DNA of 64,000 bases from Candidatus Nitrotoga sp. 1052. GTDB taxonomy: Bacteria; Pseudomonadota; Gammaproteobacteria; Burkholderiales; Gallionellaceae. The DNA lies in assembly GCF_927312905.1 (NCBI RefSeq), contig NZ_CAKMHQ010000009.1, positions 1 through 64,000 of the forward strand, read 5' to 3'. Positions 24,290-39,663 of the stretch are shown in pieces. The position numbers and the translations under genes are program-made. The notes beneath the pieces were generated by a model that was not told the DNA's origin, searched no databases, and saw only the letters and a program-made list of their open reading frames with translations. How positions within the stretch are numbered: position 1 is the first letter of the stretch; each line of letters opens with the position of its first letter.

Positions 24290-26149
24290 ATGAACGTTTT
24301 TTACGAAGAAGACGGCGCTTTCAAGGTCGGCTCAATACTCGCTGACAATACAACCTCACTGCAAGTGGAAAGCATGCATGGCAAGCGCAGCAAGATCAAG
24401 GCAGCCAACGTGCTGTTACGCTTTGCCCAACCGGGGCTGATTGAGTTTATGACGCAGGCGGAAGGCATCGCAGCAGACATAGATGTGGAATTTCTGTGGG
24501 AATGCAGCCCGCCGGATGATTTCGGCTTTAACGAGCTGGCCAGCGAATATTTTGGCCACGCGCCCAATCCGATCGAGGCAGCGGGCACCTTGATCCGCCT
24601 GCATTCCTCGCCAATGCACTTTTACAAAAAAGGCAAGGGGCACTACAAGGCCGCACCACCGGATGCACTCAAATCTGCGCTAGCCAGCGCCGAAAAAAAA
24701 CGTCTGCAAGCCGCCTTGCAAGCACGTTACACCAACGAGCTGATCGCTTTCACCTTGCCGCCGGAATTCACCGACAAGTTGCCGCATCTGCTATACAAAC
24801 CGGATCGCAACACCCTCGAGGTGAAAGCGCTGGAGGCCGCCTGCACCGCTACGCACTTGTCGGCCGCGCACTTGTTGCAACGCTGCGGAGCAGTTCCTTC
24901 CACGCAGGCTTATCATTTGCAGCGTTTCTTATTTGAAAATTTCCCGCATGGAACCGGTTTCGCTGAAGTCGATTTGGCTGTCTGGTCCGACCTGCCACTG
25001 GCAGTAGATACTGCATTTAGCATAGATGATGCGACCACTACAGAAATCGACGATGCCTTTTCGGTCAGAGAGCTTGCCAACGGCAACTGGCGTATCGGCG
25101 TGCACATTGCCGCCCCTTCACTGGGCATAGCGCCCGGTTCGCCAGGTGATGAAATCGCGATGCAGCGTATGTCCACGGTATATATGCCTGGAGACAAGAT
25201 CACCATGTTGCCAGACAACGTGGTGCAGGCATTTACCCTAAGTGCCGACAAGGTTTGCCCGTCGCTCTCCATGTATCTCGAAGTCGATGCCGACACCCTG
25301 GCCGTGCTCGGTACGGAAAGCCGCATTGAGCGCATCCATATCGCCGCCAATCTGCGTCATGACACACTGGAACCGCTATTCAACGAGGATACGCTGGCTG
25401 CTGGCAAGCAGGATTTTCTCTTTGCGGCAGAGCTCACGCTATTATGGAAATTAGCGCAAAAGCTGGAAGCAACGCGCGGCAAATCCGCCGACAATAGTAT
25501 CCAGCAGGTGGATTACAATTTTCACGTGGAAAACGATCGCATCAGCATCAGTACTCGGCAGCGTGGTTCACCCATCGACAAGGTGGTGGCAGAACTGATG
25601 ATTTTCGTTAACTCGGAATGGGGCAAGCTGCTCGCGACGCACGATGTAGCGGGCATCTACCGCACGCAAAGCAACGGCAAGGTGAAGATGAGCACCGTGC
25701 CGGCACCACACCAAGGATTGGGCGTGGCACAGTATATGTGGTCAAGTTCGCCGCTGCGCCGCTACATAGACTTTATCAACCAGCGCCAGATCATCAGCCT
25801 GTTACGCGAAGATCCACCCGCCTACACCAAAAACGATACAACACTGTTCGCCGTTATTCGCGACTTCGACGCTGCCTATATGGTTTACAACGAATTCCAG
25901 CGCAATATGGAACGCTACTGGTGTTTACGCTGGCTGCTGCAGGAGAATATTCAGCAGGCCGAAGCGCTGGTGCTACGTGAAAACCTGGTGAAGCTCGTGC
26001 ACATCCCACTGATAAGCCGCATCCCATCATTACCGGAATTGCCGCCTAATACGCGTGTAATCCTGGAAATAGGCGAAATTGATCTGCTCGACTTGAATTT
26101 CAATGCCCGCTTCATCTCCACGGTAGAGGAGGAGGCTACCGCTTGCTAG
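24290..26149 (+). CDS. RNase II/RNB-domain exoribonuclease-like protein
   Basis: 619 residues. The RNB catalytic domain spans about 230-520. The metal-binding segment SIDDATTTEIDDAF gives Asp246, Asp247, Asp254 and Asp255, though Glu252 replaces the usual Asp in the middle. YRTQSNGKVKMS and YMWSSSPLRRYIDFINQRQI match the catalytic Arg and RNA-binding parts. The N-terminal part is unlike the cold-shock domains of E. coli RNase II. It would degrade RNA 3' to 5'. The start at 24290 has no clear ribosome-binding site. It overlaps the next gene by 7 nt. Confidence 0.9.
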   Translation: MNVFYEEDGAFKVGSILADNTTSLQVESMHGKRSKIKAANVLLRFAQPGLIEFMTQAEGIAADIDVEFLWECSPPDDFGFNELASEYFGHAPNPIEAAGTLIRLHSSPMHFYKKGKGHYKAAPPDALKSALASAEKKRLQAALQARYTNELIAFTLPPEFTDKLPHLLYKPDRNTLEVKALEAACTATHLSAAHLLQRCGAVPSTQAYHLQRFLFENFPHGTGFAEVDLAVWSDLPLAVDTAFSIDDATTTEIDDAFSVRELANGNWRIGVHIAAPSLGIAPGSPGDEIAMQRMSTVYMPGDKITMLPDNVVQAFTLSADKVCPSLSMYLEVDADTLAVLGTESRIERIHIAANLRHDTLEPLFNEDTLAAGKQDFLFAAELTLLWKLAQKLEATRGKSADNSIQQVDYNFHVENDRISISTRQRGSPIDKVVAELMIFVNSEWGKLLATHDVAGIYRTQSNGKVKMSTVPAPHQGLGVAQYMWSSSPLRRYIDFINQRQIISLLREDPPAYTKNDTTLFAVIRDFDAAYMVYNEFQRNMERYWCLRWLLQENIQQAEALVLRENLVKLVHIPLISRIPSLPELPPNTRVILEIGEIDLLDLNFNARFISTVEEEATAC

Positions 26150-27967: not shown

Positions 27968-29251
27968 ATGAAGATACTTCTTTTATCACTTGGGTTGGCG
28001 GCGATAATTTTCAATCTCTCTTTCGCTCTTGAGACGGCAAGCCTCAGCAATTATGAGGCTGCCGGAGGCAACGTACTGCGCGTTACCGAACCAGCCGCCC
28101 CTCTTACGCTAAAATCCGCTCTCGAATTAGCTTATGGCGCCAATGCAGCCCTGTCTACCGCTAAACGGGAACTCGAAGCAGTCGCTGGATCGATCCTTCA
28201 AGCTGGCCTTCGTCCGAACCCAAGAGTTGAAGCATTAATCGAGGATCCGCGACCCGAGAATCGTCTTACCGCAATATACGTAAGTCAGTCTTTAGAACTC
28301 GGCGGCAAACGGCCCGCGCGCATTGCCGCCGCCGAGCGGCGCCGTGATGTCGCCTCGGCAGAATTGAATGCCATGCGTGCAGAAATTCGCGCAGCCGTCA
28401 TGGTGGCTTTTTTTGATGTACTTGTGGCGCAAGAACGTTTTCTTTTAACGCAAGGGTTGGTCGAACTCTCGCAACGCGCAACCACTGCTGCCTCAAAACG
28501 AGTAACGGCTGGCAAGGTGTCCCCAGTCGAAGAGACCAAGGCACGTGTTGCTGAAGCGAGCGTTCGGGTCGAACTTAGTCAAGCGGCCACCAGCCTGAAA
28601 ATGGCACGTAAACGCCTCACGGCTATATGGGGAAATGCGACGCCTCGTTTCGAGCGAGCTGAGGGTCAGGTTGAAGCGCTACCTGCACTACCCGCGCTGA
28701 ATGATTTGACTGCCCGCTTGGCAAATTCACCCGGGTTGGCTCGCGCGCAGCTTGAAGTGAACCGCCGACAGGCACTGGTGGAAGTAGAACGCAGTCTTCG
28801 CATTCCGGACGTGACACTTAGTTTGGGTGGCAGACGCAACGTAGACATCAACCAAGCGCTTCTTGGCGTGTCACTGCCAATCCCGATCTTCAATCGCAAC
28901 CAAGGAAATATATTGGAGGCGTTACGCCGCACCGACAAGGCAAGGGACGAACTGTCTGGAACCGAGATCCGTCTCAATAATGAGATCGCTCAGGCGCTCG
29001 AACGTCTTAATGTTGCCCGTCAAGAAATTGAAGTTTTACAGCAAGAGATTCTCCCTGGTGCGCAAAGTGCCTACGATGCCGCGACCAAAGGTTACATTAT
29101 GGGTAAGTTCAGTTTCCTTGAAGTGCTCGACGCTCAGCGCACGCTGTTCCAAGCCAAATCTCAATACCTGCGCGCCTTGGCAGAAGCACATCGATCTGCT
29201 GCCGAAATCGAACGTGTTCTTGGCGAAGCGCCCGATATACCAACACTCTGA
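27968..29251 (+). CDS. czcC: Outer-membrane factor of metal RND efflux (CzcC-like)
   Basis: 427 residues. Signal peptide about 1-20, then two OEP/TolC-type helical repeats (LKSALELAYGANAALSTAKREL; PGLARAQLEVNRRQALVEVERS; SLPIPIFNRNQGNI). It forms the outer-membrane channel of a tripartite pump with the following two genes. A GGAG site lies before the ATG. It is first in a three-gene operon, 43 nt before czcB. Confidence 0.9.
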   Translation: MKILLLSLGLAAIIFNLSFALETASLSNYEAAGGNVLRVTEPAAPLTLKSALELAYGANAALSTAKRELEAVAGSILQAGLRPNPRVEALIEDPRPENRLTAIYVSQSLELGGKRPARIAAAERRRDVASAELNAMRAEIRAAVMVAFFDVLVAQERFLLTQGLVELSQRATTAASKRVTAGKVSPVEETKARVAEASVRVELSQAATSLKMARKRLTAIWGNATPRFERAEGQVEALPALPALNDLTARLANSPGLARAQLEVNRRQALVEVERSLRIPDVTLSLGGRRNVDINQALLGVSLPIPIFNRNQGNILEALRRTDKARDELSGTEIRLNNEIAQALERLNVARQEIEVLQQEILPGAQSAYDAATKGYIMGKFSFLEVLDAQRTLFQAKSQYLRALAEAHRSAAEIERVLGEAPDIPTL

Positions 29252-29294
29252 TAACCGTGGAAGCCAGTCGCCACAACGTCATAGGGAAATCGAC

Positions 29295-30827
29295 ATGAAC
29301 TTCAATCTGAACAAGAAGCAAACCATTTACATTGCCGTTGTTCTGGCGATCGGCATCGTACTCGCCATCCTGATACTCATCAGCCAAGGAGGCACAAAGC
29401 AGCAGCCGCACGAGGGGGATGGAAGCGGTCACGACAGACACTCGCACGACAGCCACTCACACAATAAACACTCAGAAGATGAACCGCAGAAAGGTCAACA
29501 CGGCGGAAAGCTATTCACGCAAAACGGCTATGGTGTTGAAATAACTATCTTCGAAGAGGGCGTGGAACCTGAGTTTCGCGTCTATACCTATAAGAACGGC
29601 AAACCGCTCGATCCTGCCACCAGCAAGGTTACAATCACCCTCGAACGCCTCGGTCGCAAGCCTCAGAAAATCACCTTCGTAAAGCAAAATGATTATCTAA
29701 AAGGCAATGCAGTAATTGCGGAGCCGCACTCTTTCAAAGTAACGGTCGACGCGCAATTCGGCAATAAGCCTTACTCGTTCACCTATGAGCAGATCGAAGC
29801 ACGCGTGAGCATGACCGATCAACAGGTCGAGCAAGGCGGCATCGAAATACTGACCTCTGGACCAGCGCGCATCAAGAGCACGTTGCAACTTATTGGTCAC
29901 ATCAGTTTCAACGAAGACCGGGTGGTGTATGTTGTACCGCGACTAGCCGGAGTGGTTGAATCGGTGAACGCGAATGCCGGTGACCAAGTGCGCAAAGGGC
30001 ATATCCTGGCAGTTATTTCCAGCCAAGCGCTGGCCGACCTGCGAAGCGAACTGCTGGCGGCGCAAAAACGGTTAAGCTTGGCGCGCACCACCTTCGAGCG
30101 CGAAAAAAGGTTGTGGGAAGAAAAAATTTCCGCCGAGCAGGACTACCTGCAAGCACGCAACGTCATGCATGAAGCCGAAATCATCACCCAGAGGGTAAAA
30201 CAGAAACTGGCTTCGCTCGGCGGCGCTCTGACGACCAGCAGCAATCTCACGCGCTATGAAATTCGCGCGCCAATCGATGGCATCGTGATGAAGAAGCAAA
30301 TTTCGGTCGGCCAAGTGCTCCAGGAGGATGCCAACATCTTTGTCGTGGCTGATTTGTCCACAGTTTGGGCGGTATTGACCATCTACGCCAAGGATCTGAA
30401 TACCGTGAAAGTCGGGCAGATGGCCACCGTCAAAGCGACTGCATTTGAATACCAGAGCAGTGGCCGCGTGGACCATCTTGGCGGATTGCTGGGCGAACAG
30501 ACTCGCACAGCAGAAGCACACATCATTCTGCCCAACCCCGAAGGCATCTGGCGACCCGGCATGCCAGTCAATATCGAACTGGTGGCTGATGAGATCGAGG
30601 TGCCGGTGGCAGTCTCCGCGGACGCCATTCAGACTGTGCGCGACTGGACGGCTGTCTTCGTCCGCTATGGCACCTTCTTCGAAGCGCACCCTCTCGAACT
30701 GGGACGTAGCGACGGCAAGTTTATTGAAGTGGTCAAGGGGTTAAGTGCAGGCGAGCGGTACGCCGCGAAGAACAGTTTCCTGATCAAGGCCGACTTGGGC
30801 AAAGCCGGCGCAAGCCATGAGCACTAG
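29295..30827 (+). CDS. czcB: Periplasmic adaptor of metal RND efflux (CzcB-like)
   Basis: 510 residues from the ATG at 29295; the frame is open much further upstream inside czcC but without reason to start there. An N-terminal membrane anchor (about 12-32) is followed by a His-rich segment about 40-70 that probably binds metal. Then come the beta-barrel, lipoyl and helical-hairpin parts of a membrane-fusion protein (YVVPRLAGVVESVNANAGDQVRKG; YEIRAPIDGIVMKKQISVGQ). It joins the inner pump to the outer channel. It is 9 nt before czcA. Confidence 0.92.
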   Translation: MNFNLNKKQTIYIAVVLAIGIVLAILILISQGGTKQQPHEGDGSGHDRHSHDSHSHNKHSEDEPQKGQHGGKLFTQNGYGVEITIFEEGVEPEFRVYTYKNGKPLDPATSKVTITLERLGRKPQKITFVKQNDYLKGNAVIAEPHSFKVTVDAQFGNKPYSFTYEQIEARVSMTDQQVEQGGIEILTSGPARIKSTLQLIGHISFNEDRVVYVVPRLAGVVESVNANAGDQVRKGHILAVISSQALADLRSELLAAQKRLSLARTTFEREKRLWEEKISAEQDYLQARNVMHEAEIITQRVKQKLASLGGALTTSSNLTRYEIRAPIDGIVMKKQISVGQVLQEDANIFVVADLSTVWAVLTIYAKDLNTVKVGQMATVKATAFEYQSSGRVDHLGGLLGEQTRTAEAHIILPNPEGIWRPGMPVNIELVADEIEVPVAVSADAIQTVRDWTAVFVRYGTFFEAHPLELGRSDGKFIEVVKGLSAGERYAAKNSFLIKADLGKAGASHEH

Positions 30828-30836
30828 GGGATCCTC

Positions 30837-33800
30837 ATGTTCGAAAAAATAATACGTTTTGCCATTGATCAGCGCTGGCTGGTGCTGGTGATGACACTCG
30901 GAATGGCAGTATTGGGTATCTTTAGTTATCAGAATTTGCCGATCGATGCCGTCCCCGATATTACTAATGTGCAAGTTCAAGTAAATACTGCAGCACCTGG
31001 GTATTCGCCGCTGGAATCCGAGCAGCGCATCACGTTTCCGATAGAAATCGTCATGGCCGGCCTTCCCAACCTGCAGCAGACCCGATCACTGTCGCGCTAT
31101 GGGTTGTCGCAAGTCACCGTGATTTTCAAGGACGGTACAGACATCTACTTCGCACGCCAGCTCGTCAACGAGCGCATCCAACAGGCCAAGGGCAAATTAC
31201 CGGCAGGTATCGAACCCAGCATGGGGCCAATCTCCACTGGCCTCGGGGAAATTTTCATGTGGACGGTCGAATCCAAGGAAGGTGCGCGCAAAGCTGATGG
31301 CTCACTCTATACTTCCACCGATCTGCGCGAAATCCAGGACTGGATCATCAAACCGCAGCTGCGCCATGTGCCCGGCGTGACCGAAATCAACAGCATTGGT
31401 GGTTACGTGAAGGAGTTTCAAGTCGCGCCGCTCCCGGACAAATTGGTGGCTTACAGTCTGACGCTGCAAGACCTGATTGTGGCGCTCGAACGTAACAATA
31501 ACAACGTCGGGGCTGGTTATATCGAAAAGCGCGGCGAGCAGTATCTGATCCGCGCGCCTGGTCAGATAGCCTCCATTGAAGACATCGGCAACATAATTGT
31601 TAGCAGCCAACAGGGCGTTCCTATCCGGATTCGAGAAGTGGCCGAAGTCGGCATCGGCAAAGAATTGCGCACCGGTGCCGCGACCGAGAATGGCCGCGAG
31701 GTGGTACTCGGCACCGTGTACATGCTGATCGGGCAGAACAGTCGAACAGTCTCCCAAGCCGTCGCCAAGCGCCTGGAAGAGATCAACCGCACGCTGCCAC
31801 AAGGCGTGGTAGCCAATGAAGTCTATAACCGCACGATTCTGATCGACAAGGCCATCAATACTGTTAAAAAAAATCTTATCGAAGGAGCGCTGCTAGTGAT
31901 TGCGATCCTATTTCTATTTCTCGGCAACATCCGCGCCGCCATTATTACTGCCTTGGTAATTCCGTTGGCTATGCTGTTCACCTTCACCGGCATGGTCTCT
32001 AACAAGGTCAGCGCCAACCTGATGAGCCTGGGGGCTCTGGACTTCGGCATTATCATCGACGGTGCCGTAGTGATTGTAGAGAACTGCATACGGCGGCTCG
32101 CCCATGCGCAAACCGTGGCGGGCCGGGCATTAACTCCCGATGAGCGCTTTCATGAGGTATTTGCAGCCTCCAAGGAAGCGCGTAGACCACTTTTGTTTGG
32201 CCAGCTAATTATCATGGTGGTATATCTGCCAATATTTGCACTCTCTGGAGTGGAAGGAAAGATGTTCCACCCGATGGCGTTTACTGTGGTGGCTGCTTTG
32301 CTGGGAGCCATGATTCTATCGGTCACGTTTATTCCTGCGGCGGTATCGGTGCTGATCGGCCACAAAATTAGCGAAAAAGAAAATCGATTGATGATCCTGG
32401 CCAAACGCGGCTACCAACCGATGCTTAGTTTTGCAATGCTTAACAAGCAGTTGGTGTTAATTGTAGCGATTGTCGCAGTGATACTTAGCGGCCTGCTTGC
32501 CACGCGCATGGGAAGCGAATTCGTGCCGAGCCTAAACGAAGGCGATATCGCACTGCATGCACTGCGCGTTCCCGGAACCAGCCTGTCACAGGCGATCGAA
32601 ATGCAAGCTGAACTGGAGCGAACAATCAAGCAGTTTCCCGAGGTCGACAGAATTTTCGCCAAGATGGGAACCGCCGAAATTGCCACTGACCCCATGCCAC
32701 CTAACGTCGCCGACAATTTCGTGATGATGAAAGCGCAAACAGAGTGGCCCGATCCAGGCCGTAGCAAAGCCGACCTGATCGATGCCATGCGGCAAGCGGT
32801 AACCAAAGTACCCGGCAACAACTATGAGTTCACCCAGCCGATCCAGATGCGGTTCAATGAGCTGTTATCTGGCGTTCGCAGCGACGTGGCCGTAAAGGTG
32901 TTCGGCGATGACATGGACGCAATGAACAAAACCGCCGATGAAATTTCAAACGTGCTGGCTAAGATTTCCGGCGCAACGGATGTCAAAGTTGAGCAAACCA
33001 CGGGTTTGCCAGTACTTACCATCAAGATAGATCGTGAGAAAACCGCTCGCTATGGCGTCAGTGTTGGGGATGTGCAGGATACGATTGCAATTGCGATGGG
33101 CGGCCAGAAAGCCGGAGTATTATTTCAGGGCGACCGCCGCTTCGACATTGTCGTGCGTCTGCCTGAGAAGTTACGGAGTGATATGGAGGCGCTCAAACGA
33201 TTGCCGATTCGTTTGCCTGATAATCAAGCCAATGACCGATTTCGCTCCAACTATTTGCAACTTGGTGACGTTGAACACTTTGGGACCGTTGGTCGCCCCC
33301 CATCTAACTATATACAACTGAGTGAAGTCGCGGTCATTGAGGTGGTGCCTGGACCGAACCAGATCAGTCGCGAGAACGGCAAACGTCGCGTAGTGGTAAC
33401 AACTAACGTAAGGGAACGGGATATTGGCTCGTTCGTCACAGCAGCCGAACAGGAGATTCAGCAGAAGGTCCCCATACCTACTGGTTATTGGACAACCTGG
33501 GGTGGCACCTTCGAGCAAATGCAATCAGCGGCAAAGCGTCTGCGAATTGTGGTTCCTGTCTCACTGCTGCTAGTATTTATGCTGTTGTTTGCAATGTTTA
33601 ATAACGTGAAGGATGGACTGCTGGTGTTCACCGGCGTGCCGTTTGCCTTGACCGGCGGGATACTGGCGCTGTGGCTGCGGGATATTCCGCTTTCTATTTC
33701 GGCGGGGATAGGCTTCATTGCGTTGTCAGGCGTTGCCGTGCTCAATGGCCTGGTGATGATCTCCTACATTCGATCTTTGCGCGATGAAGGCATGCATCTT

Positions 33801-34085
33801 GATGCAGCGATCCAGGAGGGGGCGCTCACCCGCTTGCGCCCAGTGCTGATGACCGCACTGGTGGCCTCTCTGGGCTTCGTGCCCATGGCGATCGCAATCG
33901 GCACTGGTGCCGAAGTGCAACGCCCGCTCGCGACGGTTGTGATTGGAGGTATTTTGTCATCAACTGCACTGACGTTGCTGGTCCTGCCTATTCTGTATCA
34001 ACTGGCACACCAGAAAGAAAGCGTTCGGCTACGGCATGAACATGACGAACCATTCCGCCCACACGATTTCAAAGGTACCAGCTAA
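30837..34085 (+). CDS. czcA: Heavy-metal RND efflux pump (CzcA-like)
   Basis: 1082 residues, the full length for the family, with twelve expected membrane segments in two halves and large periplasmic loops. The proton-relay segment DFGIIIDGAVVIVEN gives Asp402, Asp408 and Glu415. This DFG...DGA...EN pattern is that of the Czc/Cnr-type (zinc, cobalt, cadmium, nickel) branch rather than CusA-type copper/silver pumps. It exports divalent cations with proton exchange. A GGGG site precedes the start. No metal-sensing two-component system (czcRS type) is present beside it. Confidence 0.95.
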   Translation: MFEKIIRFAIDQRWLVLVMTLGMAVLGIFSYQNLPIDAVPDITNVQVQVNTAAPGYSPLESEQRITFPIEIVMAGLPNLQQTRSLSRYGLSQVTVIFKDGTDIYFARQLVNERIQQAKGKLPAGIEPSMGPISTGLGEIFMWTVESKEGARKADGSLYTSTDLREIQDWIIKPQLRHVPGVTEINSIGGYVKEFQVAPLPDKLVAYSLTLQDLIVALERNNNNVGAGYIEKRGEQYLIRAPGQIASIEDIGNIIVSSQQGVPIRIREVAEVGIGKELRTGAATENGREVVLGTVYMLIGQNSRTVSQAVAKRLEEINRTLPQGVVANEVYNRTILIDKAINTVKKNLIEGALLVIAILFLFLGNIRAAIITALVIPLAMLFTFTGMVSNKVSANLMSLGALDFGIIIDGAVVIVENCIRRLAHAQTVAGRALTPDERFHEVFAASKEARRPLLFGQLIIMVVYLPIFALSGVEGKMFHPMAFTVVAALLGAMILSVTFIPAAVSVLIGHKISEKENRLMILAKRGYQPMLSFAMLNKQLVLIVAIVAVILSGLLATRMGSEFVPSLNEGDIALHALRVPGTSLSQAIEMQAELERTIKQFPEVDRIFAKMGTAEIATDPMPPNVADNFVMMKAQTEWPDPGRSKADLIDAMRQAVTKVPGNNYEFTQPIQMRFNELLSGVRSDVAVKVFGDDMDAMNKTADEISNVLAKISGATDVKVEQTTGLPVLTIKIDREKTARYGVSVGDVQDTIAIAMGGQKAGVLFQGDRRFDIVVRLPEKLRSDMEALKRLPIRLPDNQANDRFRSNYLQLGDVEHFGTVGRPPSNYIQLSEVAVIEVVPGPNQISRENGKRRVVVTTNVRERDIGSFVTAAEQEIQQKVPIPTGYWTTWGGTFEQMQSAAKRLRIVVPVSLLLVFMLLFAMFNNVKDGLLVFTGVPFALTGGILALWLRDIPLSISAGIGFIALSGVAVLNGLVMISYIRSLRDEGMHLDAAIQEGALTRLRPVLMTALVASLGFVPMAIAIGTGAEVQRPLATVVIGGILSSTALTLLVLPILYQLAHQKESVRLRHEHDEPFRPHDFKGTS

Positions 34086-34490: not shown

Positions 34491-35162
34491 ATGGCAACGA
34501 AACGCAAAACCGCCTCTTTGCCGGGGGTACTGTTTGTCCTTGCGCTTCACGGTGCATTGTTTTACATCCTATGGAGCCAGAAATTGATTCCACCACCGAA
34601 ACAGGTGGTAATGTTCGTTAACGTCATCGCCACACCTAAGCCGCAAGAAGAACCCAAGCCCGAGCCACCTCGCTCTACACCCAAGCCGGAACCTGTATTC
34701 CGACTTTCATCCAAGCCGCAACCAATAAAGCAGCCAAAACAGCAGCAATTGGTAGCTGAAGCACCGGTGCTTTCCCAAAGCGAACCTGTCGCGTCACCAC
34801 CACCGCATGAACCAGAACCAGAAAGAATAGAGGGTCCGGCAGCACCATCTGGGCCGATATCACTTGCGCCAGTCATGCTATCCTCTGAACTATCGCTCAC
34901 CTGTCCTAAATTGAGTGCGCCTTCCTACCCGCAACTCTCGCGCCAGCGTGGTGAAGAGGGCAAGGTGATGCTACGGGTAGAACTGGATGAAACCGGTCGC
35001 GTAAGCTTAGCGCAGGTAATTAATAGCAGCGGTTACAAACATCTCGACGAGGCTGCCCTGAGCGCAGTAAAAACCTGGCATTGCAATCCGCCCAGACGCA
35101 ACGGCCAGCCAGTTCGGGCAATCGCCATGCAACCATTTAACTTTATACTGCCAGGAGATTGA
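34491..35162 (+). CDS. tonB: TonB energy transducer
   Basis: 223 residues. An N-terminal membrane anchor is near 12-30, followed by a long Pro/Glu/Lys-rich spacer about 45-125 and a TonB C-terminal domain about 135-220 (YPQLSRQRGEEGKVMLRVELDETG, LDEAALSAVKTWHCNPP). It transmits the proton-motive force to outer-membrane receptors. It heads tonB-exbB-exbD and is likely dedicated to the receptor gene at 37150. Confidence 0.93.
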   Translation: MATKRKTASLPGVLFVLALHGALFYILWSQKLIPPPKQVVMFVNVIATPKPQEEPKPEPPRSTPKPEPVFRLSSKPQPIKQPKQQQLVAEAPVLSQSEPVASPPPHEPEPERIEGPAAPSGPISLAPVMLSSELSLTCPKLSAPSYPQLSRQRGEEGKVMLRVELDETGRVSLAQVINSSGYKHLDEAALSAVKTWHCNPPRRNGQPVRAIAMQPFNFILPGD

Positions 35163-35166
35163 ACTA

Positions 35167-35910
35167 ATGGAAAAAGGACTCGGTTTCTCACACTTTCTCT
35201 CCCAGGTCGATGATATCGGCATTGGCGTACTTGTACTATTGCTTGCGCTGTCAATGGCGAGTTGGTATCTCATATTCACCAAAACTATTGCCAATTTTCT
35301 GGCTGCGCGCCGCGCGGAGACTTTTCTCAAGCGCTTCTGGAACGCCAATTCTTTACAAGAGGTAAATGCGACCCTGACCGTCAATGCGATTGATAACGCC
35401 TTCGCGCAGCTCGCACAACTAGCGCTGGATGCCGCCCTCGAGTCGGAAACACGCGGTTTGAAGCACCTCGCAATTACTGGTGGCGGCACAAGCGAGTTCA
35501 TTACCCGCGTACTACGCAATAGCATCGAACAAGAAGCTGCGCGCGTTGAAAGTGGCCTTACAATGTTAGCCTCAGCTGGCTCGGCTGCACCCTTTATAGG
35601 TCTGTTCGGCACGGTTTTAGGTATCTATCACGCGCTGGTGCAAATCGGCATTTCCGGCCAAGGGACGCTGGACAAAGTGGCCGGCCCAGTAGGTGAGGCA
35701 CTAATAATGACGGCGTTGGGGTTGGCAGTGGCGATACCGGCAGTGTTGGCCTACAACGCATTTGTGCGGCGCAATCGTTTATGGCTGGCGCGCCTGGATG
35801 CCTTCGCTCATGACCTCTTCGCGCTCGTCACCGTCGGCGTCAAGTCCAATAGTTCTGCGGACGATGAGCATCCGTCGCATATGGTTGAACTCACTGAAAG
35901 GAGACCGTAA
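35167..35910 (+). CDS. exbB: ExbB/TolQ-family proton channel subunit
   Basis: 247 residues with three membrane segments (about 17-37, 135-158, 170-195). The MotA/TolQ/ExbB proton-channel domain is evident from APFIGLFGTVLGIYHAL and GPVGEALIMTALGLAVAIPAVLAYN. With ExbD it uses the proton gradient to energise TonB. It begins 4 nt after tonB and overlaps exbD by one base. Confidence 0.95.
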   Translation: MEKGLGFSHFLSQVDDIGIGVLVLLLALSMASWYLIFTKTIANFLAARRAETFLKRFWNANSLQEVNATLTVNAIDNAFAQLAQLALDAALESETRGLKHLAITGGGTSEFITRVLRNSIEQEAARVESGLTMLASAGSAAPFIGLFGTVLGIYHALVQIGISGQGTLDKVAGPVGEALIMTALGLAVAIPAVLAYNAFVRRNRLWLARLDAFAHDLFALVTVGVKSNSSADDEHPSHMVELTERRP

Positions 35911-36323
35911 TGGCATTTGGCAACTTGAGCAGTAATCGTCAAACACCCTTGGCCGATATCAATGTAGTGCCGCTGGTGGACGTAATGTTAGTGCTACTGG
36001 TGATCTTCATAATTACTGCACCGTTGCTCACGAATGCAGTGAAGATCGAATTGCCTAAGGCGTCTAGCACCCCGAATATAACGCAATCGGAGCATATCGA
36101 ATTTGGCATTCGCGAAGATGCCAGTTTATTTTGGAACGGTGAGCCTGTCGCACTGGACCAATTAACACTGCGATTTGCCGCGTCGGTAACTCAGAATCCT
36201 AATACCGAGCTGCATATCCTTGCCGACAAGCATGTTCATTACGAAAATGTAGCGAAGGTAATGTCGATTGCGGCGAAAGCCGGGGTGGTGCGTATAGGAT
36301 TCATTACCGATCCATCGCCTTAG
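35910..36323 (+). CDS. exbD: ExbD/TolR-family transport protein
   Basis: 137 residues. A single N-terminal membrane segment (about 20-42) has the conserved Asp in INVVPLVDVMLVLLVIFIIT, followed by a periplasmic ExbD domain (LHILADKHVHYENVAKVMSIAAKAG). It is the partner of ExbB. The start overlaps the exbB stop (TAATG). Confidence 0.95.
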   Translation: MAFGNLSSNRQTPLADINVVPLVDVMLVLLVIFIITAPLLTNAVKIELPKASSTPNITQSEHIEFGIREDASLFWNGEPVALDQLTLRFAASVTQNPNTELHILADKHVHYENVAKVMSIAAKAGVVRIGFITDPSP

Positions 36324-36563: not shown

Positions 36564-37157
36564 GTGAATCCTGTAGAGACTGAAGTGGACAACCTTGATT
36601 TTATTACCGAAGACATCGCGACTTTTGTAACTAATGCGCCCGGTTCAAGAATATTTCCATTCCAAATCCAAAATCGGCCATTATTCCGTGCCATAAGAAA
36701 CAGACGTTTCATTACGCTACAGAAATCCCCCGCATCTTGCACCATCTTTCAATCTTTGTTAAGGTTGGCCGCATCATGCAATTTTCCCGTGCCCTTTTCC
36801 CGCTGCTGCTTACCTTGTTGCTGCTTTTTGCCCAGCAAGGCGGGGCTATGCATGCTCTGCGCCATGCACTTGCGGAGCATGATCAGCAGCATGACAAGCA
36901 TGCACCGCATTCATCGGCATGCGGACATTGTGCGGCTTACACACAACTGGGCGGCGTACTTAGCAGCTCTTCCCATTCCTTCGGCGTTATCGCCATTCCG
37001 AACGGAACGATACAGCTTAATACCATTCCATTCCGTTCCAACCAACCCCTTATCGTCGTTGCGCGCGGCCCGCCTGGTCTTCTCCAAGAAATTGCATAAG
37101 ACCGCCCCGTTTAACGCGGGGTTATGTCATTCATTTTTGGAGAATTGTTATGTTTAA
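36564..37157 (+). CDS. Overlapping frame with strong start signal, doubtful
   Basis: A GTG at 36564 lies 6 nt after AGGAGG, the best ribosome-binding site in this stretch, and the frame stays open for 197 codons. The first 60 residues (MNPVETEVDNLDFITEDIAT...) look protein-like; later it runs through the gene at 36776-37099 in another frame and becomes Cys/Ser/Pro/Leu-rich shadow sequence. A short real protein that has lost its stop by frameshift, or a translated leader, are both possible. Confidence 0.3.
   Translation: MNPVETEVDNLDFITEDIATFVTNAPGSRIFPFQIQNRPLFRAIRNRRFITLQKSPASCTIFQSLLRLAASCNFPVPFSRCCLPCCCFLPSKAGLCMLCAMHLRSMISSMTSMHRIHRHADIVRLTHNWAAYLAALPIPSALSPFRTERYSLIPFHSVPTNPLSSLRAARLVFSKKLHKTAPFNAGLCHSFLENCYV
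36776..37099 (+). CDS. Small exported His/Cys protein, DUF2946-like
   Basis: 107 residues from the ATG at 36776 (MQFSRALFPLLL); the frame is open from 36737. Signal peptide about 1-25, then a His-rich stretch (HDQQHDKHAPHSSACGHC) with a CGHC motif, and a C-terminus with RGPPG. Small proteins of this sort commonly sit next to TonB-dependent receptors and may bind metal. It lies 50 nt before the receptor gene and downstream of operator-like site 3. Confidence 0.7.
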   Translation: MQFSRALFPLLLTLLLLFAQQGGAMHALRHALAEHDQQHDKHAPHSSACGHCAAYTQLGGVLSSSSHSFGVIAIPNGTIQLNTIPFRSNQPLIVVARGPPGLLQEIA

Positions 37158-39663
37158 GCACGTCATACTCTGCGCGGCGCAATTCACTCATGCCGCGACC
37201 AGGAAATCAGTTTACTTAATACCCCTGCTATTGTTGGCTTTCGCGGCATCCTCTAAAGCACACGCGGCTGTTTCCATGCTGAGTGTTACTTGCAACGATG
37301 AGGACATGGGCGCCGAAGTGTTTATCAACGGCAAATTTAAGGGCAAATGCCCATTGGATTTAACCGTTCCCGCTGGCAAGTTAAAGCTGAAAGTTCAAAA
37401 GAAAGTGGATGCTTTTAGTGCTCGCGTATTCGAACAGGAAGTAAGAGTAGGCAAAGGCGTGGACAAACATGTCAAAGTGTTATTAGGTGCTGCGCAACTT
37501 AACGCCAAAGGCAAGCAGCTCCAATCCAGGCGACGGAGCTCGGAGGAAGCCGAGATGAAGAAGCCAGGGAAAGAAGGCAAGCCCGAAACTGTGGCGATTC
37601 CAGCCCCCACCTTTGTCATTACCAAACCTGTCGTTCCGCCGCCGGTCGTCGTAGCCGCCCCGGCCGCAATCACTCCTCCCGTCATTGTGTCGCCGCAGGT
37701 TGTGGTTACAGAGCAAGCTGCAAATGAACCTGTCTTACTGCCGCCGGTCGTTGTTACCGCTAACCCGTTGGGAAGCGCCCTGTTTGACCTCGTATCCCCG
37801 GTCTCTGTGCTGAGCGGAAAAGATCTATCGTTTCGACAAGAGAGCACTTTAGGTGAAACGCTTTCCAAACTTCCCGGCGTAAGTTCAACCTACTTTGGCC
37901 CGAACTCGAGCCGTCCCGTAATCCGCGGCCTGGACGGTGATCGCGTACGGATAATGCAGAACGGTGTCGGCATGCTCGATGTTTCGGCCTTGAGCCCCGA
38001 CCATGCTACGACCGTAGATCCGTTGGTGGTAGATCGGATCGAAGTGGTGCGCGGCCCTGCAGCACTGATGTATGGAGGTGCCGCAGTAGGAGGCGTAGTG
38101 AACTCGCTCGACAACCGCATTCCCCAATCGCCCATCAAAGGCTTCACGGGCCGTGTTGAACCACGGATTGGTGGTGCCGCCAACGAGCGCAGCGGTGCAG
38201 CCGTGCTGGAAGCCGGCAATGGCCTGGTCGCACTCCACGCTGACATCGCTTTACGCCGAACTGACGACCTCCGTATCCCCGGTTTTGCGCGATCAGACCG
38301 ACAACGTGCTCTGGATGACCCTACAGTCGAACAGCCCCATGGACGCCTGCCAAATAGCTCATTGAAGAGCGATAGCGGTGCTGTGGGTGCTTCCCTCACT
38401 TTGGACAAGGGATATCTCGGCCTCTCATATAGCGATATGCAATCGAATTACGGCACAGTGGCGGAACCGGACGTGCGCGTCGACATGCACAGCAAACGGT
38501 TAGGCGTGGCTGGAGAAGTGCGCGAGCTGGGCACGTTCGTTCAGGGGGTGAAGTTCAAATATGGCTACACCGATTACCTGCACAATGAGCTGGAGAACGG
38601 TGAAATTGCAACCACTTTCAAAAACAGGGGGTATGAAACACGGGTAGACGCGACTCACGCCAAGCTGGGGCCATTCACCGGCGCCTTCGGAGCGCAGCTT
38701 TCAAATACTGATTTCGCGGCGCTTGGCGAAGAAGCATTTCTGCCGAAAGTCAATACCGACGCCAAAGCGCTTTTCATTTATGAGGAAGCCGTATTCGGCG
38801 ACGTCAAGCTTACCGCAGGGGGCCGTAACGAACATACCACAGTAGCATCGGCCGGGGATAGCCCAACAACAACGCGCTTTGGCGCGGCCCAGGCGCGCAA
38901 GTTTTCGGCCAATAGCGGTGCCTTAGGCGCGCTCTACACCTTCAATCCGAATGTTACCCTGACTGCAAACTTTTCGCACACCGAGCGTGTGCCGACGTAC
39001 GCCGAGCTATTCGCGAATGGCCGACATGTAGCAACTGGACAGTTCGAGGTGGGTGACACAACGCTTTCAAAGGAGAAATCGAACGGCGCTGATTTGCAAT
39101 TGCGCTGGCGTTCGGGCCCGCATTCAGCAAGTATCAGCGGCTTCTACACCCGCTTCCAAAACTACATTGCATTGATCAGAAGCGGCCAAGAGCAGGAAGA
39201 ACTGACTGAGGTGCTATTTCGCGCGGTGAAGGCTGAATTTCATGGTTTTGAAACGGAAGGAAAATTCCGAGTATATGAGGAAAAAGGTAATCTCGATCTC
39301 AACCTGCGCGGCGACTATGTGCGGGCGAAGAACAGTGACACGGGCGAGCCATTGCCGCGCATTACTCCCATGCGTCTCGGCGCGGGACTTGATTACCAAC
39401 TTGGCAAGTTCAGTGCGAGGCTCGACGTTTCCCATTCTTTCAAGCAGGATCGAGTGGCAGCGAACGAACTATCCACCCGTGGCTACACGCTGACCAACAC
39501 CACGCTGAACTACCGCTTTAAGACGCAAGCAGTTAACTGGGACGCCTATATCAAGGGCAATAATCTTTTCAACCAGGAAGCACGAGCGCATACCTCGTTC
39601 CTGAAGGAACTCGCCCCGTTACCGGGGCGCGGTTTTCTTCTGGGCGTACGTGCCAATTTCTGA
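37150..39663 (+). CDS. TonB-dependent receptor with N-terminal PEGA-like domain
   Basis: 837 residues. Signal peptide about 1-40. Residues about 41-112 look like a PEGA domain (AEVFINGKFKGKCPLDLTVPAGK). A Pro/Val-rich linker follows to about 205 and may hold the TonB box (PVVVTAN). The plug domain is about 208-320 (RPVIRGLDGDRVRIMQNG; DRIEVVRGPAALMYGGAAVGGVVN), and the beta-barrel ends in an aromatic Phe (VRANF). The barrel resembles ZnuD-type zinc receptors, but the His-rich loop seen in ZnuD is weak here. The PEGA extension is not usual in this family. Substrate likely a metal ion or complex; zinc is a guess from similarity. Confidence 0.9.
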   Translation: MFKHVILCAAQFTHAATRKSVYLIPLLLLAFAASSKAHAAVSMLSVTCNDEDMGAEVFINGKFKGKCPLDLTVPAGKLKLKVQKKVDAFSARVFEQEVRVGKGVDKHVKVLLGAAQLNAKGKQLQSRRRSSEEAEMKKPGKEGKPETVAIPAPTFVITKPVVPPPVVVAAPAAITPPVIVSPQVVVTEQAANEPVLLPPVVVTANPLGSALFDLVSPVSVLSGKDLSFRQESTLGETLSKLPGVSSTYFGPNSSRPVIRGLDGDRVRIMQNGVGMLDVSALSPDHATTVDPLVVDRIEVVRGPAALMYGGAAVGGVVNSLDNRIPQSPIKGFTGRVEPRIGGAANERSGAAVLEAGNGLVALHADIALRRTDDLRIPGFARSDRQRALDDPTVEQPHGRLPNSSLKSDSGAVGASLTLDKGYLGLSYSDMQSNYGTVAEPDVRVDMHSKRLGVAGEVRELGTFVQGVKFKYGYTDYLHNELENGEIATTFKNRGYETRVDATHAKLGPFTGAFGAQLSNTDFAALGEEAFLPKVNTDAKALFIYEEAVFGDVKLTAGGRNEHTTVASAGDSPTTTRFGAAQARKFSANSGALGALYTFNPNVTLTANFSHTERVPTYAELFANGRHVATGQFEVGDTTLSKEKSNGADLQLRWRSGPHSASISGFYTRFQNYIALIRSGQEQEELTEVLFRAVKAEFHGFETEGKFRVYEEKGNLDLNLRGDYVRAKNSDTGEPLPRITPMRLGAGLDYQLGKFSARLDVSHSFKQDRVAANELSTRGYTLTNTTLNYRFKTQAVNWDAYIKGNNLFNQEARAHTSFLKELAPLPGRGFLLGVRANF

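Follow-up and report, generated by a model that had tools for sequence, protein, structure and literature searches.

The window analysed here is a stretch of 64,000 nucleotides from Candidatus Nitrotoga sp. 1052, in which an open reading frame (ORF) at positions 37150-39663 of the forward strand encodes a ZnuD-like TonB-dependent receptor of 837 residues. It is evident that this receptor carries a PEGA domain before its plug, as the original prediction had claimed. Comparison with related genes identifies its N-terminal segment as the product of a gene fusion, in which the 5′ part of a PEGA-FGE gene lies between the signal peptide and the TonB box. We propose that the receptor originated by this fusion and that the PEGA domain would act in the periplasm as a docking domain for biogenesis or partner choice, a reading to which we assign a probability of roughly 0.55. 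The sequences show a fusion, a single origin, a remnant of the FGE-domain start, purifying selection on the PEGA domain and conserved zinc ligands in the receptor body.

Domain layout of the receptor

The receptor ORF was identified by its Pfam and NCBIfam matches and by a match in the PDB. Its first 40 residues (37150-37269; all parts of the receptor gene are on the forward strand) form a signal peptide region, predicted by eye, which aligns with the signal peptides of a PEGA-less receptor and of PEGA-FGE proteins. The PEGA domain occupies residues 41-112 (37270-37485). The linker, residues 113-184 (37486-37701), holds a remnant of an FGE-domain start at about residues 144-160 (PETVAIPAPTFVITK) and is then Pro/Val-rich. 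A putative TonB box, LLPPVVVTA, was assigned by position and pattern at residues 196-204 (37735-37761), ahead of the plug (residues 213-316, 37786-38097) and the beta-barrel (residues 426-806, 38425-39567), both of which exceed their Pfam cut-offs (76.7 bits for Plug and 139.3 bits for the barrel). By alignment, D284 and H285 in the plug and E480 and H626 in the barrel are equivalents of zinc ligands.

The Pfam PEGA profile (PF08308) matches residues 53-84 with 22.8 bits (cut-off 20.8, E = 8.9e-5), a partial match that covers profile positions 11-43 of 71 and is barely above the cut-off. A whole-genome search with PF08308 gave 26.2 bits (E = 2.2e-5) for the PEGA domain of this receptor. Five receptor orthologues were matched at the same place, one above the cut-off (21.7 bits) and four below it (17.5-18.9 bits). 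Despite the weak Pfam match, the domain can be regarded as real because it has close paralogues in the same genome and because the domain alone yields a confident structural model. The predicted PEGA pattern at residues about 41-112 is thus borne out both by a Pfam match above the cut-off and by 61-66% identity to PEGA paralogues, and its proposed location in the periplasm agrees with a domain that precedes the TonB box and the plug. A Pro/Val-rich linker ahead of the plug is present as described, but it measures about 72 residues (~113-184) rather than about 90. The original prediction had the PEGA layout of the receptor right and overlooked the PEGA-FGE fusion, the ZnuD-type body and the upstream DUF2946 ORF. 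The SusC-extension family PF13715 gave no Pfam match in the receptor at E values up to 1, a PDB sequence search with the PEGA profile returned chance matches only (best E = 0.083, a designed protein), and a plasmid search with receptor residues 1-217 returned zero matches.

PF08308 is found in at least 96 of 369 genomes of the class and at least 103 of 398 genomes of the phylum. These matches were listed down to E values of about 2.5e-6 (class) and about 1.4e-8 (phylum), and a PEGA domain as weak as that of the window (E = 2.2e-5) falls outside this range. From the matches listed in the two scopes, 100 PEGA loci with open frames of at least 600 amino acids were sampled. A plug profile built from 22 receptor sequences matched none of the 100 PEGA ORFs and found three receptors of the control set, and Pfam gave no Plug among 25 of 88 and 25 of 42 families listed for these ORFs. 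The most frequent partners of PEGA in the sample were FGE-sulfatase (64 ORFs) and protein kinase (37 ORFs). PF13715 was present in 23/50 and 8/50 PEGA-bearing ORFs, which agrees with the structural matches described below, and in the one case listed its stretch overlaps that of PEGA. A survey of receptors for the layout originally predicted recovers it in 13 of the 19 Nitrotoga genomes and, among the matches listed, not elsewhere in the lineages surveyed. A literature search, with web domain databases outside its scope, did not find a PEGA domain in a TonB-dependent receptor, and the literature on Nitrotoga and TonB, as far as its accessible text goes, concerned a compost metagenome only. Within these surveys, a PEGA domain ahead of the TonB box appears to be new; TonB receptors with another small domain there are already known.

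The company that PEGA keeps also bears on the idea that it binds peptidoglycan and fixes the receptor, or a receptor cluster, at the cell wall. The domain lies in the periplasm, and the accessible text of PMC2447325 describes PEGA from cell-surface proteins, both of which would suit such an anchor. Pairing mostly with FGE-sulfatase or protein kinase domains, however, gives little hint of a wall binder, the parts of the PEGA literature consulted contain no report of peptidoglycan binding, and no support for S-layer or peptidoglycan binding by the receptor PEGA was found. The original proposal that the domain could hold peptidoglycan or TonB thus gained no support. We consider a wall anchor improbable.

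Origin by fusion with a PEGA-FGE gene

Three further proteins of the same genome carry this PEGA segment, two of 325 and 328 amino acids encoded by adjoining genes (L034:3791-4768 and L034:4977-5963) and one of 509 amino acids with two PEGA copies (L035:5466-6995). All three also contain an FGE-sulfatase (sulfatase-modifying-factor-like) domain. Receptor residues 19-112 share 61-66% identity with these three paralogues; for one of them the PEGA score is 33.6 bits, over two stretches. The secreted PEGA-FGE proteins of Nitrotoga and of members of its family are thus the likely source of the receptor PEGA segment, but they have an FGE-sulfatase domain in place of the plug and barrel of the receptor. 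FGE enzymes possess a catalytic cysteine pair in their C-terminal part. The PEGA-FGE proteins of this genome have no cysteine in that part, so they are probably not FGE enzymes.

The similarity to PEGA-FGE proteins continues into the linker: the receptor has PETVAIPAPTFVITK at the place where the FGE domain of FGE proteins starts with PEMVPIPGTNFAMAK. When 38 linker residues were compared with FGE2, 12 of the 13 receptors scored better than 1000 shuffles (p = 0.001-0.025), the exception being that of genome G005 (p = 0.53). Downstream, the DNA shared by fused genes and their PEGA-less twins begins only at nucleotide 555 (codon 185), and the PEGA-less twins have a short leader of their own. The 3′ junction of the fusion falls in codons 160-185 and the 5′ junction within codons 17-47; the latter interval is not narrower because the signal peptides of the PEGA receptor, the PEGA-less receptor and PEGA-FGE proteins resemble each other. 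In the fused gene of genome G014, AAMKSVYV is found at the site where PEGA-FGE genes begin with MKSVYV. The FGE remnant in the linker, the DNA shared with the PEGA-less twins from codon 185 and the separate leader of these twins together show that the 5′ part of a PEGA-FGE gene was inserted between the signal peptide and the TonB box. As a separate observation, the linker of the most divergent fused receptor (G005, L043:3588-6293) is rich in His (HLHDPHALDAHASTQHD) instead of Pro/Val.

The whole-receptor search covered 61 genomes, 19 of which belong to the genus Candidatus Nitrotoga (the present one included), and 16 named loci were recovered in strains that include Nitrotoga sp. BS, CP45, SPKER, MKT, LAW and M5. 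A PEGA-fused receptor is present in 13 of the 19 genus genomes, with 7 complete genes (open frames of 854-915 amino acids) and 6 cut by contig ends, and a PEGA-less copy is present in 7 of the 19. Genomes G006 and G008, each consisting of one contig, have the fused receptor only. All 7 full-length PEGA receptors are open, and two of the three end-to-end PEGA-less copies are broken (G001 and G007; the copy in G013 is open). Since seven independent assemblies agree, the fused genes are unlikely to be assembly errors.

Within the family, 24/150 genomes contain the PEGA type of the receptor, 15 from the genus and 9 from outside it. In these nine, all 10 matches are located in ORFs of 128-398 amino acids, none of receptor length, and one of these ORFs (in G023) has an FGE match. 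Scans of the order and of the class found this type in 3/399 genomes (two being Nitrotoga) and in 6/340 genomes, respectively. A tree built from 24 PEGA domains places the 13 receptor PEGAs on one side of a branch with support 99/98 and gives G005 a very long branch. The simplest account of these relationships is a single fusion in the ancestor of the genus. A wider view, which we hold only tentatively and with some doubt, is that one traceable fusion gave a metal receptor a stand-alone periplasmic docking domain that fills, by convergence, the role of the SusC extension, and that across most of the genus this fused form later replaced the plain zinc receptor.

Several loci show features of their own. 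In Nitrotoga sp. BS, a broken PEGA-less copy (L036:5975-8183) and a fused copy (L036:16503-19013) are 9 kb apart and 95-96% identical in DNA; other PEGA-less copies are only 81-82% identical to the broken copy, which suggests gene conversion between the BS twins. In other Nitrotoga genomes (L041:8164-15023), the genes after the fused receptor encode another TonB receptor (779 amino acids), a BNR-repeat protein and a small protein; the last resembles thioredoxin by eye and gave no NCBIfam match. An invertible receptor locus, considered for the oppositely oriented N-termini in G007, was dropped, as the pieces stop at the ends of contigs and are consistent with two distinct loci.

Selection, fold and possible role of the PEGA domain

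The ratio of nonsynonymous to synonymous substitution rates (dN/dS) was estimated from 12 receptor sequences, with G005 left out. The values are 0.37 for the signal peptide, 0.19 for PEGA (bootstrap 0.12-0.31), 0.50 for the linker (0.35-0.67) and 0.13 for the TonB box and plug. Restricted to the six full-length sequences, the estimates are 0.29 for PEGA and 0.53 for the linker. Judged from these substitutions, the PEGA domain is under purifying selection, its constraint being below that of the plug and above that of the linker. Both C48 and C67 are present in 13/13 receptors, and 152-153 residues separate the PEGA start from the TonB box in each of the 9 measurable sequences. It could be argued that what the receptor gained from the fusion was a functional signal peptide and leader, with PEGA itself an idle passenger, given that both fused families are rich in paralogues and that the linker evolves fast. 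Such idleness is hard to reconcile with a PEGA ratio far below that of the linker, two invariant cysteines and a nearly constant length up to the TonB box, and the fused copy is the one kept in 7/7 full-length cases. We therefore regard a mere passenger as unlikely.

The invariance of the two cysteines in 13 receptors, at a locus concerned with metals, also raises the possibility that PEGA accepts the imported ion from the plug through C48 and C67. However, every one of the 11 rows in the PEGA alignment, which also contains FGE proteins, has the same cysteines, and these thus predate the receptor. A disulfide is likelier, and the domain is without conserved histidines, which makes metal handling in the periplasm a very unlikely function.

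A model of residues 38-125, computed from a five-row alignment, reached a mean predicted local distance difference test score (pLDDT) of 83.5 and a predicted template modelling score (pTM) of 0.72, and is all beta except for a short helical turn. The domain is predicted to fold as a transthyretin-like sandwich. Its top structural match is 6hif chain Y, a small chain of the anammox hydrazine dehydrogenase complex (Z = 9.2), followed by the transthyretin-like domain of carboxypeptidase D (5aq0; Z = 8.1, root-mean-square deviation (rmsd) 2.3 over 71 residues), the RtkS-PpkA complex (Z = 7.6) and the N-terminal extension of SusCdex (9hfj; Z = 7.4, rmsd 2.5 over 71 residues, a middling value for a common fold). 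In the full-length model only the PEGA part is confident, with block means of 69-85 at residues 41-110.

Roles have been described for RtkS and for the extension of a SusC protein. The available text of PMC6082577 presents RtkS as a periplasmic binding partner that stabilises the kinase PpkA. In the SusC protein Bt1763, the extension precedes the TonB box, and its deletion abolished growth on levan with the protein still at 25-50%; its authors propose a role in biogenesis or in selection among TonB proteins (PMC7782687, in the part accessible to us). SusC-type receptors with this extension resemble the Nitrotoga receptor in having a small domain before the TonB box, which in Nitrotoga is transthyretin/Ig-like as far as its model shows. 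They differ in that the extension belongs to PF13715 and the barrel to another type, the substrate is a glycan and the hosts are Bacteroidota, in contrast to PEGA and a metal in Nitrotoga.

In our reading, two genes were combined in the ancestry of Candidatus Nitrotoga: the region encoding PEGA, the linker and the first FGE strand, from the 5′ part of a PEGA-FGE gene, entered a copy of a gene for a ZnuD-type zinc receptor at a point after the signal peptide and before the TonB box. The resulting receptor would present a disulfide-ready, transthyretin-like PEGA domain in the periplasm, on a flexible linker of ~72 residues that precedes the TonB box. By analogy with SusC and RtkS, PEGA may serve there as a protein-docking module in place of the SusC N-terminal extension, and the docking would assist the biogenesis of the receptor or the choice of TonB or another partner. 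A choice of TonB is a concrete possibility because the window encodes two TonB proteins (at 26143 and 34491).

FecA, FpvA and FoxA also have an additional periplasmic domain, STN, ahead of the TonB box, as the accessible text of PMC11658791 describes, and PEGA in the same position might likewise report substrate binding to an inner-membrane regulator. STN is of another fold and family, though, and the domain search that returned the PEGA match found none for this known receptor signalling domain (PF07660) at E values up to 1. In contrast to these receptors, the Nitrotoga receptor has no adjoining FecR- or sigma-type gene among the scanned neighbours, and regulation would more likely proceed through the upstream DUF2946 ORF. 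Signalling by PEGA thus seems very improbable, and the domain is probably neither a wall anchor nor a signalling domain of the extracytoplasmic-function (ECF) type.

Some points weigh against the fusion and docking proposed here. The Pro/Val part of the linker (160-184) is without a clear source, and the G005 PEGA is highly divergent (43%) and lacks the FGE remnant. The structural matches are middling (Z = 7-9) for a common fold and so show no function. The full-length model, from a six-row alignment, has a mean pLDDT of 34, too low for any PEGA contact with the plug or the TonB box to be visible. The docking partner is putative and the role is drawn by analogy.

Receptor body, gene neighbourhood and likely metal

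The nearest solved relative of the receptor body is ZnuD (PDB 4RDR, E = 2.4e-60). The zinc ligands of Neisseria ZnuD, given as D99, H100, E340 and H499 in the available text of PMC4557270, align to D284, H285, E480 and H626 of the receptor and are invariant in 6/6 receptors of alignment A2. The Nitrotoga receptor thus shares with ZnuD the plug, the barrel and all four zinc ligands. It differs in its PEGA domain, which ZnuD lacks, and in having no equivalent, by alignment, of the His/Asp-rich clusters of ZnuD loop 3. One PEGA-less twin, that of Nitrotoga sp. SPKER (G007, L037:8504-18631), is a frameshifted ZnuD-like receptor gene inside a zinc cluster with DUF2946, DUF3299, an ABC transporter, ZrgA, DUF1826, ZigA (689.8 bits, cut-off 600), ZIP and a Fur-family regulator. 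Because of the four conserved ligands and the zinc cluster around this twin, zinc appears to be the likelier ion, and copper is possible. Two observations fit zinc less well: the receptor scores 373.5 bits for the ZnuD equivalog NF038289, far below the cut-off of 950, and the upstream ORF is of a copper-sensing kind, a better match to a copper than to a zinc receptor.

This upstream ORF, of the DUF2946 or CruR type (107 amino acids, 36776-37099, forward strand), scores 24.8 bits for Pfam DUF2946 (cut-off 23.7) and lies 50 nucleotides before the receptor gene. It contains CGHC, then 44 residues, then RGPP and 7 residues to its C-terminal end. In cruR-bfrG of Bordetella pertussis (PMC9426467), a DUF2946 ORF likewise heads a TonB-receptor gene, and both DUF2946 ORFs have CxxC followed by R(A/G)PP at a distance of 44-45 residues. 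The Bordetella motif is RAPP with an intergenic stretch of 162 nucleotides, compared with RGPP and 50 nucleotides in the window, and the Nitrotoga receptor is of the ZnuD type, with no PepSY gene beside the window copy. A predicted switch of the copper type is thus coupled to a receptor of the zinc type.

Further upstream, on the forward strand, are tonB (34491-35162; Pfam TonB_C, 81.9 bits), exbB (35167-35910; Pfam MotA_ExbB, with NCBIfam tolQ best at 164.8 bits and exbB at 104.1, both below cut-off) and exbD (35910-36323; Pfam ExbD, 104.8 bits). The order in the window is a CzcA-type efflux set (27968-34085), tonB-exbB-exbD, the DUF2946 ORF and the receptor. The efflux set is a CzcCBA-type heavy-metal operon with outer-membrane, adaptor and RND genes (1691 bits for the CzcA family); its adaptor ORF (654 amino acids, TTG start) overlaps the TolC-type gene, so the real start is probably more internal.

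Domains ahead of the TonB box are known from STN and the SusC extension, and this case bears on their origin and on the role of the extension. Both parents of the fusion survive, as plain receptor twins (87% identical in one genome) and as PEGA-FGE proteins in the same genomes. Receptors with and without PEGA are thus directly comparable, so that what such an extension does can be put to the test. The locus would also join DUF2946 control, as predicted, to a ZnuD-type receptor in nitrite oxidisers, organisms that are dependent on metal enzymes.

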